From: Falsigemmobacter faecalis
GTDB taxonomy: Bacteria > Pseudomonadota > Alphaproteobacteria > Rhodobacterales > Rhodobacteraceae
Assembly (NCBI RefSeq): GCF_003863335.1
Contig: NZ_RRAZ01000022.1
Coordinates: forward strand, 1-62,462
Direction: 5' to 3'
DNA length: 62,462 nt
The notes under the pieces were generated by a model. The model saw nothing but the letters and a program-made list of their open reading frames with translations. It made no database searches and was not told where the DNA came from. Position numbers and translations under genes: made by a program. Every line of letters starts with the position of its first letter. Position 1 is the first letter of the stretch. Below are positions 2,982 to 62,462 of the stretch, piece by piece.

Positions 2982-4730
2982 ATGGATGAAGCGGGAGGTC
3001 TACCACGGGCAGAGGCACTCTCAGGCGATATCCTGCATGCGCTTTATGATCTGGCCGCACGACCCGAGCGGCTGCAGCGGTTTCTGGAAATCTGGGAGGC
3101 ATGGGCCGCCCCGCAGCGGCTTTTGCCGCCGGCCGCGCAGTCCTGGCCGCTCGCCCATATCGCCCTGGCGCTGGAGCTGATGGAGCGTGGCAGCCGGGCT
3201 GAACAGACTTTTGGTGCGGGCTCGGTGCTTGATCTTTATCCCGGCGTCGCAACTTTCCTGGCTGATGGCGGTCCCCGGATCGCGAAGGTTAATCAGGCGG
3301 CCACCGGCGCGCTGTCGCTCTGCGACGGGGCGGAGCTGTCACGTCTGCCGCTCGACATACCGGATCTCAACAAGCTCCGGCAGATGATCCGCCTGGTCGC
3401 AGAGGGGCGGATGGAGGGGCCGATGACGCTGCGCCTGCGCCATCAGGGCAACGGCGGGCTGCTGATCTGCCGCATCGCGGTGTCGCCGGTGCCGGCCTTT
3501 CCGCCCATGGCGCTTATCGTGACCTCAGAGCTGAACTGGACCGAGGAGTGCAGCCGCACCCTGCGGGCCGCTTTTGGCCTGTCGCCCGCAGAGGTGGATA
3601 TCACCCGCTCGATCTGCCGCGGCCAGAGCCTTGCAGAAGTGGCCGCGCAGCGCGGCCGCTCGGCAGAGACGGTGCGCACACAGCTGCGCACGGTCCTGAC
3701 CAAGACCGAGACCCACGGCCAAAGCGATCTGGTGCGCGTCGCCCTGACACTGCTGCAGGGCGCGCATCTGCCCAAAGCCCCCCTGCCTGAGGCGCAAAGC
3801 CGTCCCTCTCGGGCGGGAGTCAGCCGGATTGAGACCTCTGTTCTGCGGCTGCCGGGCGGACGGCGGCTGGACTATCTGGAATTCGGCACCCCCGAGGGAT
3901 CACCGCTTCTGTTTTTGCATTCCGACTGGGGGCTTGCGCGCTGGCCCGCACGGGCCGAAGCTGCCGCCGCGGCGCGCGGTCTGCGGGTGATTGTGCCGTT
4001 CCGGGAAGGCTATGGGGCAAGCAGCCTGCTGCCGGGCAGCGTCAACCAGCTCGACGGGGTCACCGCAGATCTTTCGGCGCTGCTGGACCATCTCGGGGTG
4101 CCCGAGGCGATGGTGCTCAGCCTTGGGGGCGATCTGCGCTTTGCGCTGAACCTTGCCGGGCGCCGCCCCGATCTGGTGACCGCAATCTTAGGTGCCGCCC
4201 CGCTTTTGCCCTTCCATGAGGCGACAGACTGGAGGGCCCTCACCGGATGGCCGCGCTGGCTGAGAGCCAATGCGCGCTTCACGCCGGATCTGATGCCGCT
4301 GTTGACCCGCGCCATGCTGGCCGCCTCTCCGGCGCACGCGGGCGTGATCGAGACCCTCCTGACCGCCCAGGGCCCCGATCAGATCGCCGCCACCGACCGG
4401 GAGATGCGCAGCGCCCTGCAGGCGGGACTTCTGCAGACCCTTCTGCGTCCGCAAAAAGGCCGCTCCGGCGCGCTGGCGCGGGGGATTTTGGCCACTGAGG
4501 CGGACTGGAGCGGCCTTCTGGCGCAGAGCGTGGTGCCGCTGCATCTCCTTCACGGCACCGCAGATCCCTTTGCCCCGCCGGACACGTTCAGCCATCCCCT
4601 GCGGCGCGGAAACCCGGTTGCGATCCAAAGCCTGCCGGAGGCCGGGCATCTCCTCATGCTCACGCATTGGCACGTCATTCTGACGAAGCTGGACAGCATA
4701 ATGCGCGCTCATACCGATCGTGCGGAGTGA
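2982..4730 (+). CDS. LuxR-type HTH regulator fused to an alpha/beta hydrolase
   Basis: This 582-residue protein joins three parts. Residues 1-190 form a PAS-like sensory region. Residues 195-260 are a LuxR/GerE helix-turn-helix (LSPAEVDITRSICRG, then AEVAAQRGRSAETVRTQL). Residues 285-575 are an alpha/beta hydrolase with a visible catalytic triad: Ser in VLSLGGD (about 377), Asp in GTADPF (about 528) and His in EAGHLLM (about 554). The first Gly of the usual GxSxG elbow is Val. The intact triad suggests that the C-terminal domain binds or cleaves a small-molecule effector; that is inference. No strong Shine-Dalgarno sequence precedes the ATG (only TTGGAT), although a TGATATATCA palindrome lies about 27 bp upstream. 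The gene is monocistronic and is followed by the palindrome/terminator units at 4.8-5.1 kb. Confidence 0.85.
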   Translation: MDEAGGLPRAEALSGDILHALYDLAARPERLQRFLEIWEAWAAPQRLLPPAAQSWPLAHIALALELMERGSRAEQTFGAGSVLDLYPGVATFLADGGPRIAKVNQAATGALSLCDGAELSRLPLDIPDLNKLRQMIRLVAEGRMEGPMTLRLRHQGNGGLLICRIAVSPVPAFPPMALIVTSELNWTEECSRTLRAAFGLSPAEVDITRSICRGQSLAEVAAQRGRSAETVRTQLRTVLTKTETHGQSDLVRVALTLLQGAHLPKAPLPEAQSRPSRAGVSRIETSVLRLPGGRRLDYLEFGTPEGSPLLFLHSDWGLARWPARAEAAAAARGLRVIVPFREGYGASSLLPGSVNQLDGVTADLSALLDHLGVPEAMVLSLGGDLRFALNLAGRRPDLVTAILGAAPLLPFHEATDWRALTGWPRWLRANARFTPDLMPLLTRAMLAASPAHAGVIETLLTAQGPDQIAATDREMRSALQAGLLQTLLRPQKGRSGALARGILATEADWSGLLAQSVVPLHLLHGTADPFAPPDTFSHPLRRGNPVAIQSLPEAGHLLMLTHWHVILTKLDSIMRAHTDRAE

Positions 4731-4796: not shown

Positions 4797-4814
4797 ATAC
4801 CCCGAATGGGGTAT
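4797..4814. promoter_or_regulatory. 18-bp perfect palindrome (LuxR-box-like operator), copy 1
   Basis: ATACCCC-GAAT-GGGGTAT is a perfect 7-bp dyad with a 4-bp centre, 66 bp past the LuxR-hydrolase stop. A close relative lies at 4986-5003, with shared consensus WTACCCYGAAYSGGGTAT. Size and symmetry resemble the 18-20 bp sites of LuxR-type regulators. Assignment to the neighbouring regulator is inference. Confidence 0.55.
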
Positions 4815-4932
4815 GTCCCTCCCGCACATCTGCGGCAAAGTGACACTATAGAGCCAAGAACTTCGCCAGCATCATTCATCAAGATATTTGCATAGCAGGG
4901 GTGGCGGGAATTTGTTCCCGTCACCCTTTTTT
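4815..4932 (+). ncRNA. Candidate small RNA 1
   Basis: Between palindrome 1 and a strong terminator lies about 85 bp with no plausible reading frame. A TGACAC followed by TATAGA at about 4841-4852 could belong to a promoter. The layout matches that of candidate 2 downstream. The alternative is a long 3' untranslated region of the LuxR-hydrolase mRNA. Confidence 0.35.
4899..4932 (+). terminator. Strong intrinsic terminator of candidate sRNA 1
   Basis: The 12-bp stem GGGTGGCGGGAA / TTCCCGTCACCC (one G-U pair) with loop TTTG is followed directly by six T residues. Confidence 0.85.
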
Positions 4933-4985
4933 AGTGCCGGATCGCCAGAAAATTCCGGCCTGAACATACCGCATACTGCGAAATT

Positions 4986-5003
4986 TTACCCTGAACCGGG
5001 TAT
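4986..5003. promoter_or_regulatory. 18-bp palindrome, copy 2
   Basis: TTACCCTGAACCGGGTAT matches copy 1 at 14 of 18 positions and keeps the TACCC/GGGTA arms. It is 189 bp after copy 1 and sits at nearly the same distance (81 versus 85 bp) from a downstream intrinsic terminator. Confidence 0.5.
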
Positions 5004-5115
5004 GTGACACCTGACACCAGAAGATAGGCTGTAACTGTCGGCAATCTTTGTTTGGTAACCAGTGGCAGCTTTATTGAACAGGACGGCGGTCCCACCCCAG
5101 GGGACCGCCGTTTTT
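5004..5115 (+). ncRNA. Candidate small RNA 2
   Basis: A non-coding stretch lies between palindrome 2 and the terminator at 5084-5115. It starts with two TGACAC motifs (5005-5010 and 5012-5017). Its body sequence is not similar to candidate 1; only the operator and overall layout are shared. No RNA family was recognised. Confidence 0.35.
5084..5115 (+). terminator. Strong intrinsic terminator of candidate sRNA 2
   Basis: A 10-bp perfect stem CGGCGGTCCC / GGGACCGCCG with a 7-nt loop is followed by five T residues. Confidence 0.85.
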
Positions 5116-51974: not shown

Positions 51975-52002
51975 CCGCCCATGCCCCTCGCATGGCGGAC
52001 AG

Positions 52003-52190
52003 GTGACACAGCCGGCAGGTCTCCTGGCTCGCGGGTCGCTGTTCGGGTCCGCCTTCCCGGGGAGCTCCCCCAGTGGCATTTCAGACCGTCACTCGCCGCT
52101 TACAGTTGCGGGGGCAGCTGTGGATTGACCGGAGAGATCTCCGCCACATTCCCTTTTCATCCCGACAGGCAGGCCCGCCGGAAACCGGTG
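52003..52190 (-). ncRNA. Cobalamin (B12) riboswitch
   Basis: Read on the minus strand the conserved blocks are in order: GAAAAGGGAAT, the core CTGCCCCCGCAACTGTAAGC, then GCGAGT, GCCACTGGG, GGGAAGGCGG, and the B12 box GAGCCAGGAGACCTGCCGGC. The element lies upstream of btuB, as expected for adenosylcobalamin-responsive control of B12 uptake. Confidence 0.96.
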
Positions 52191-52336
52191 CTGGCCGATC
52201 CCTGCCCGGATGCCCCCGCCCTGTCAAGCCTGCCCGCCACGGCAAGGCCCCCTGGTGGCTCTGCCGCAACCGCGTGACACCATCCGCACCGCTGAGGGGC
52301 CAGCCGTCGGCCAGAAGCCCGAGAGCCCTGGCCCTC

Positions 52337-61362: not shown

Positions 61363-62462
61363 TGAACCGCCCCGAGTTTTCCGGAGGCTCCAACTTCTGA
61401 GCAGGACAGAGCATCATGAGCAAGACAACGAGGCGCAGCATGGGTCGCCTTGGCAGGCTATCGTCCCGATCGCGACCAGGATCGGCTGTTCGGCCAACAC
61501 GCTGAGCGAGTGGGTCAGAAAGGCCGGGGCCGACCGCGGCAGGCGCGCGGCATACCAGGCGGGATGGCCGGGAAGATGAAGGCCCTGGAGCGCGAGAACC
61601 GCGAGCTGCGCCAGGCGAACGAGATCTTGCGCAAGGGTGAGCCAGTGCAGGCGCCACTGGTTTAAGCCCACTGGCGAACGCGTATTTTGCGATGGCGGAG
61701 CCCGACCGCTGGTCGAAGTCACGGTGGATTTTATTGATGCCTGTCGTGGCAGCCACGGGGCGGAGCCATGATCACGCCATTGGTCCGGGTGACCATGGCG
61801 ACGGCCGATCTGCAGTGTGCTGCCGATTGCCCCGCCCACCTATGACAATCATTTGGCAAAACGGACGAATGCGGCACGACTGTCGGATCGGGCGCGTCGG
61901 GACGCGGCTCTGCGCCCGGAGATCCGTCGCGTATTCGAGGAGAACTGGCGGGGCTGTGGGGGGCGCAGGATCTGGCGACAGCTGGGCCGCGAGGGCTTCG
62001 ATATCGCGCGATGCACAGTGGCGCGGCTGATGAAGGGCATGGGCATTCAAGGCGCTATCCGCGGTAAGCCACACCGGACAACGATCCCTGACAAGAAAGC
62101 GCCCTGTCCATTGGACAAGGTGAACCGCCAGTTTCAGGGGCCCGCACCCAACAGGCTGTGGGTCAGTGACCTCACCTGCGTCGCCACATGGAAAGGTTTT
62201 GTTTATGTTGCATTCGTCCTCGATGCCGCCGCATCGTCGGCTGGCGGGTCAGCACGTCGGCTCATGCGGGTTTCGTCCCCGATGCTTTGGAACAGGCGGT
62301 GCATGATCGCCGCCCCGCAAAGGGCATGGGCCTTATCCCTCATAGCGACAGGGGCAGCCAATATGTGTCAATCAAATACACAGACCAGCTGGCAGAGGCG
62401 GGCATCGCGCCCTCGGGCGGAAGCGTCGGTGACAGCTGTGACACTGCGCTGGCCGAGACTAT
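61363..62462 (+). pseudogene. Frameshifted IS3-family transposase (IS51/IS407-like), runs off the window
   Basis: The left end probably starts at TGAACCGCCCCGAG. The orfA part gives MSKTTRR, then in other frames [20 protein letters not shown] and [18 protein letters not shown]; about 40 bp of extra sequence (61636-61675) splits that from [13 protein letters not shown]. orfB follows in pieces: SDRARRDAALRPEIRRVFEE, QLGREGFDIARCTVARLM, NRLWVSDLTCVATWKGFVYV (DDE Asp), then a frameshift at about 62225, then HSDRGSQYVSIKYT and the last piece SVGDSCDTALAET with the DDE Glu. Several frameshifts and a stop make it inactive. Confidence 0.85.
61363..62462 (+). mobile_element. IS3-family insertion sequence, partial at the window edge
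   Basis: Extent of the element that contains the frameshifted transposase; its right end lies beyond the window. Left boundary inferred from the sequence where IS5 similarity ends and the orfA leader begins. Confidence 0.6.

Follow-up and report, generated by a model that had tools for sequence, protein, structure and literature searches.

The question raised by this locus of Falsigemmobacter faecalis, in which a gene for a LuxR-type regulator is followed by two short units each made of a dyad and a hairpin, is what the units produce and whether they belong to the regulator. All coordinates refer to the window, the whole stretch of DNA that was analysed (contig NZ_RRAZ01000022.1, 62,462 nt). 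Probably, a local LuxR-type receptor activates an adjacent small RNA (sRNA), doubled here, and the locus would form a self-contained receptor-to-RNA relay. We infer binding, activation, ligand sensing and base pairing from the anatomy of the locus: a regulator dimer would bind the dyad TACCCC(A/G)NNTGGGGTATG just 3′ of the gene that encodes it. The dyad would stand at about −42.5 relative to a promoter whose −35 box is poor, and the bound dimer would activate a short RNA ending at a terminator hairpin. The unit would be doubled in tandem in this genome, with RNA bodies that have diverged, and the RNAs would act in trans, most likely via base pairing. The features were placed as follows.

2982–4730, plus strand: LuxR-type regulator, 582 aa, with a PAS-like N-terminal part, a GerE/LuxR helix-turn-helix (HTH) at residues 200–254 and a C-terminal alpha/beta-hydrolase-like part at residues ~290–570.
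4797–4814 (16-bp core 4798–4813), no strand: predicted operator dyad 1, ATACCCCGAATGGGGTAT, kept 3′ of the regulator in relatives.
4836–4841, plus strand: predicted −10 element of unit 1, CAAAGT, 22 nt after the core, at the family-wide spacing and weak by consensus.
4847–4852, plus strand: alternative predicted −10 element of unit 1, TATAGA.
4848–4932, plus strand: predicted small RNA 1, ~85 nt, start predicted, with body and terminator kept in Falsigemmobacter intermedius.
4898–4932, plus strand: terminator of unit 1, hairpin 4898–4927 (−24.0 kcal/mol) and then a T run, with compensatory changes relative to F. intermedius (locus L021).
4986–5003 (16-bp core 4987–5002), no strand: predicted operator dyad 2, TTACCCTGAACCGGGTAT.
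5025–5030, plus strand: predicted −10 element of unit 2, TAGGCT, 22 nt after the core, with TAGGCT also in L021.
5037–5115, plus strand: predicted small RNA 2, ~79 nt, start predicted.
5083–5115, plus strand: terminator-like hairpin of unit 2, hairpin 5083–5111 (11 bp, 100%, −23.1 kcal/mol) with a T run.

A preliminary description of this DNA had reported two dyads at 4797–4814 and 4986–5003, each followed by a hairpin and a T run, and all of these are present in the sequence. The first dyad, described there as a perfect 18-bp palindrome, consists instead of 7-bp arms flanking GAAT, and dyad 2 is a looser, less symmetric copy of it. The hairpins had been called textbook intrinsic terminators; both have the hairpin and T run, but a consensus terminator scan lists the first and not the second. 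The distance from dyad to terminator-like hairpin is ~80 nt in both units, and the RNA bodies of the two tandem units have diverged from each other. The 16-bp pattern TACCCYGAAYSGGGTA has exactly two exact matches in the 4.24-Mb genome, both at this locus; allowing 2 mismatches added two scattered places (L003, L004), and allowing 3 added many. TACCC-N6-GGGTA occurs at two places in the window, a count unchanged with one mismatch allowed. The occurrence of two dyads is more than chance.

Homologues of the regulator were sought in a first set of 149 genomes and, using a relative's protein, in a second set of 394 genomes. For the first set, the dyad was present at 21 of 21 loci (L021–L041, window included), the same-genus loci L053 and L054 carried it too, and it was found behind 0 of 10 distant paralogues (L042–L051; the sequence of L050 extends just 87 nt beyond the stop codon). 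For the second set, whose loci are partly shared with the first, 43 of 51 homologue rows had the 16-bp core, with ≤2 of its 10 fixed positions mismatched, at a start between −16 and +82 nt relative to the stop codon, a span in which the dyad is expected by chance at ~4% of loci (hand estimate, equal base use). The 8 rows without a dyad there were L125, L142, L143 (twice), L144, L145, L147 and L148, with a variant dyad at +249 in L145. Counted by genome, 63 of 394 had a homologue at E ≤ 1e-45, and the dyad was present in 49 of these, absent in 11 and not covered in 3 (G179, G233, G377 and second matches in G196 and G253 lay outside the survey). On a tree of proteins >400 aa, with L146 left out, the single-dyad label needed 5 changes, versus 13.7 when shuffled. 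The preliminary description had proposed conservation with the regulator as a check on its adjacent LuxR-hydrolase regulator, shared operator and two small RNAs, and this part of it passed: the dyad accompanies the regulator gene across the family and is absent behind outgroup paralogues. Dyad-like CACCCC-TTCGGTGA motifs behind the paralogues L045, L047 and L051 were rejected, as they lie in a conserved stretch taken by eye as coding.

In L021, whose regulator is 66–67% identical to that of the window, the order is again regulator, dyad 1, body 1, hairpin 1, dyad 2, body 2, hairpin 2, with paired (compensatory) changes relative to the window in both hairpins and no T run after hairpin 2. Among 5 genomes of the genus, two units were found in the window and one L021-like genome and one unit in two genomes; in the fifth, neither the regulator nor a dyad site (one mismatch allowed) was found. 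Two dyads (at +13 and +267, each followed by a similar body) were also found in L126, which belongs to a different clade from the window; the two-unit label, carried by 3 rows only, needed 2 changes, with 19 of 500 shuffles as low, and the arrangement is most simply read as two separate doublings. A plasmid of Aliiroseovarius sp. M344 has the same arrangement within an unannotated stretch. For Paracoccus liaowanqingii, with a homologue 29% identical, no such dyad was seen by eye, and a sample of 289 genomes from the class yielded two further matches at E ≤ 1e-40 with 26–29% identity, which concern regulator homology alone.

Promoter geometry was analysed over 55 dyad sites, after dropping L112 and L107 (same loci as L037 and L030), L125, L145, rows with >2 mismatches, L027–L036, L038, L040 and L041 (most of which reappear among L099–L123), and L052 (a copy of L021). 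TANNNT stood 22 nt after the dyad core in 14 of the 55 sites and 23 nt after it in 7 (21 together), and at every other offset from 10 to 49 in 0–2 sites; the looser NANNNT was found in 25 sites at offset 22 and 13 at 23, versus 0–11 at the other offsets. Because TANNNT stands 22–23 nt after the core, the dyad centre is placed near −42.5, where it overlaps the −35 region in the manner of class II activation, and this distance suggests activation. The better-conserved half of the dyad is the promoter-side GGGGTATG. A consensus promoter scan did not find the −10 element CAAAGT of unit 1.

Behind the dyads, terminator-like ends were found at 36 of the 55 sites, versus a mean of 11.3 and a maximum of 20 in 20 Markov resamples. 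Bodies of clade A are ~80–110 nt long, many of them with a U- and C-rich stretch ahead of a GGGCGGCGG-type hairpin. In some members of clade B the body is ~180 nt long, with a hairpin whose loop reads GUGAGUG and an extended hairpin at the 3′ end; other bodies of this clade have a different appearance. The GUGAGUG sequence was seen at 15 of the 55 sites, versus a mean of 0.6 and a maximum of 5 over 200 resampling runs. Its flanking stem averages 6.1; re-pairing the flanks gave 3.2, and none of 500 re-pairings was as high. This hairpin of one subgroup covaries at the RNA level. In consensus folds, pairs changed on both sides numbered 8 of 13 in alignment A2, which omits both window units, both L021 units, L026, L039, L127 and L141, and 11 of 23 in A3, whose covariation energy is about zero; A3 and A4 comprise 10 of 31 clade B sites, picked by eye as alike. 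At the gathering score, no Rfam family matched at 4797–5115 or behind the regulator in 20 relatives. At the level of sequence, the units are candidate small-RNA genes, with −10-like spacing, terminator-like ends and no good coding evidence. Used as a seed, CCACTCAC, the complement of the loop, turned up just once when the 51 loci were searched on the strand of the regulator, and the idea was rejected. Separately, a second fold is possible at 4903–4960, where GGCGGGAATTT of terminator 1 can pair with AAATTCCGGCC at 4950–4960.

The regulator family was characterised on alignment A1, whose 16 members include 5 operator-less paralogues. Pfam matches at E ≤ 0.01 comprised GerE (PF00196) in 16 of 16 members, Abhydrolase_1 in 14 and PAS_4 in 4, and the GerE/LuxR C-terminal HTH in all 16 places the protein in the LuxR family; matches of the window protein itself were under the cut-offs (PF00196, 21.4 bits versus 23.5). 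An autoinducer-binding domain was not among the 8 Pfam families listed for A1, and the protein is not classed with quorum-sensing LuxR regulators. The best 60 of 242 PDB matches were mostly esterases and related hydrolases. Over 51 operator-bearing rows, the catalytic His position held Gln in 45 and His in 2 (window and L021), and in the GxSxG elbow the first Gly was kept in 0 and Ser in 20; in the window protein, Ser, Asp and His all align but the first elbow Gly is lacking. The elbow and His expected of an active alpha/beta hydrolase are thus not found together, and the hydrolase-like domain is probably a ligand sensor, because almost none of the relatives retains the catalytic signature. 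The regulators of the window and L021, the only His-keepers among the 51, also share a long tree branch and two RNA units.

Four other explanations were weighed. The one that survives best, though unlikely, takes the RNAs for 3′-untranslated-region products of the regulator mRNA, or for its terminators, and denies that the dyads are operators of an independent promoter. Its appeal is positional, with the first dyad <70 nt past the stop codon, co-directional transcription, and overlap of the dyad with the gene end in L024, L037 and L118; against this, the dyad is conserved in sequence and not in pairing alone, a −10-like hexamer prefers a certain distance from it, the second unit follows a hairpin in the window and likewise in L021 and L126, and in genomes G080 and G103 the dyad precedes a protein gene instead.

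It is distinctly improbable that the dyads are operators of another regulator and the LuxR-type neighbour a bystander. Linkage is the main evidence for pairing dyad with regulator, but the dyad stays with the regulator though the next gene varies: PPK2 in L053, a recN-like gene in L100 (weak Pfam match), DUF455 in L021, DUF5930/M23 in the window, and a locus on a plasmid. The strict operator TACCCYRNNTGGGGTATG was found in 15 of 394 genomes, in 13 of them exactly at this locus (reversed control, 2 genomes), and in only 1 of the 331 genomes lacking a homologue at E ≤ 1e-45. The recognition helix of some paralogues does not read as it does in operator-bearing rows, and the paralogues with other letters lack the dyad.

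That the RNA serves the gene downstream as leader or attenuator, and is not a free small RNA, is very doubtful: PPK2 follows co-directionally in L053 (clade A; 3383–4483), as such a leader would have it, but L100 (clade B) has a convergent gene there, and in the window the next co-directional gene starts ~800 bp past the second hairpin.

For coding potential, the preliminary description had stated that there was no reading frame in the units, which holds as far as good coding evidence is absent but is too strong as worded, since six frames of at least 50 aa in the list of open reading frames overlap 4797–5115. Two antisense frames are open across the part matching L021 (40 aa at 55% and 47 aa at 49% identity), and the remaining frames match over merely 18–20 aa or run through stops; there was no sign of coding, in that these identities appear not to exceed what DNA similarity suggests. 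That small proteins are encoded in the units, on one strand or the other, as the two open antisense frames might indicate, is scarcely credible given the gaps in the window–L021 alignment, the covariation in RNA hairpins, and clade B RNAs that by eye have no common start or frame length.

Several observations weigh against the receptor-to-RNA relay. TANNNT is missing at 22–23 nt from 34 of 55 sites, NANNNT reaches 11 sites at another offset, and the −10 of unit 1 is weak. No terminator was found at 19 of 55 sites by the rule used, unit 2 of L021 among them. The RNA bodies are not alike from one clade to the next, for several in clade B no similar body could be seen by eye, and the clade B RNA model R1 matched 6 of 149 genomes, once each, all of them training loci at this locus. 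The dyad is missing from L125, which lies at the base of clade B, and the looser dyad at one mismatch is near background over 24 genomes (46 places versus 35 for the reversed control). All these counts are raised by relatedness among the sequences, and a slight chance of coding in the antisense frames of the window units is left. More tentatively than the local relay, a family-wide one can be proposed, in which a dead hydrolase–LuxR HTH fusion would serve as a small-molecule receptor with one adjacent sRNA as its main output, fast-evolving bodies (U/C-rich in one clade, with the GUGAGUG hairpin in much of the other), tandem doubling in two separate lineages and, as an additional target, a VPLPA-CTERM surface-protein gene captured now and then; this wider version is possible but falls short of being the expected one.

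Dyads away from the 3′ side of the regulator were also surveyed. A weak third copy at 2903–2920, from which autoregulation had been proposed, departs from the consensus at 4 of the 10 fixed positions, no more closely matched than other places in 2701–2990, and is attributed to chance. Among 37 regions upstream of the regulator, the best dyad had ≤2 mismatches in 4, of which 2 had 1 mismatch, where ~7 and 0.5, respectively, were expected by hand estimate; with a chance copy in the window and no clear excess upstream, the autoregulatory part of the earlier proposal is unsupported. TACCC-N5-GGGGTATG, counted on one strand per place in 24 genomes, gave 13 exact occurrences, 10 at the regulator and 3 elsewhere (G070, G052, G080). 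The exact site of G080 and a one-mismatch site of G103 precede related secreted-protein genes, which adjoin, and are divergent from, a gene read as typA (L078, 1501–2179; L079, ~540–1180). The G080 protein (L078) has a VPLPA-CTERM signal by NCBIfam, and the secreted protein was matched at E ≤ 1e-8 in just 2 of 394 genomes, both with the dyad. In G070 and G052 (L086, L076, ~1380–1700), genes whose proteins start alike are immediately preceded by a related dyad, TACCCCC..GGGGGTATG, which overlaps with a second palindrome, GGGGTATATACCCC; this is perhaps a second regulon or another regulator's site.

With a predicted sRNA unit beside a regulator gene and a conserved dyad position, the locus would fall among regulator-adjacent sRNA modules. 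OxyR-OxyS, GcvA-GcvB and SgrR-SgrS likewise place a transcription factor beside an sRNA that it activates, and differ in having other protein families, mostly divergent genes and single sRNAs. LuxR/LuxI quorum sensing combines a LuxR-type HTH with an 18–20 bp dyad near −42.5; the regulator described here has PAS and hydrolase-like parts and no autoinducer-binding domain among its Pfam matches. GacA is a response regulator with a LuxR-type HTH, the rsm genes are not beside gacA, and the site is far upstream. In the part of PMC2375449 consulted, several sRNAs have one palindromic upstream sequence in common, a potential GacA binding site, which resembles the shared dyads of the window. The nearest described layout is that of VtlR/LsrB and AbcR1/AbcR2 in Rhizobiales, where an alphaproteobacterial regulator gene has tandem sRNA genes directly downstream; according to the portion of PMC7486931 consulted, Agrobacterium VtlR binds and activates the abcR1 promoter, and its deletion alters >250 genes. 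VtlR differs in being LysR-type, versus the LuxR-type HTH here, and the window RNAs match no Rfam family and were not aligned with AbcR. No description of such a module was found among the papers listed in one open-access library, which mostly lacks subscription papers, and the terms 'hydrolase' and 'sRNA' are absent from PMC11655674. The module appears to be real and conserved, one more variant among regulator-adjacent sRNA pairs, with a mechanism that we infer from its anatomy. If so, it would be a regulator–sRNA pair with a nearly one-site regulon in these bacteria, and a clean system for finding out which ligand a pseudohydrolase receptor senses and which targets its RNA has. The predictions for operator, start site and RNA ends are narrow, to a few bases each, and the module supplies RNA candidates absent from Rfam.

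Three further elements were recorded. Downstream of the RNA in L130 lies a TTGAT-N4-ATCAA-like site, which resembles an FNR-type box. Elsewhere in the window, Rfam placed a cobalamin riboswitch on the minus strand at 51997–52204 (119.8 bits) and an ALIL pseudoknot (RF01497), usually a frameshift signal of insertion sequences, at 61679–61834.
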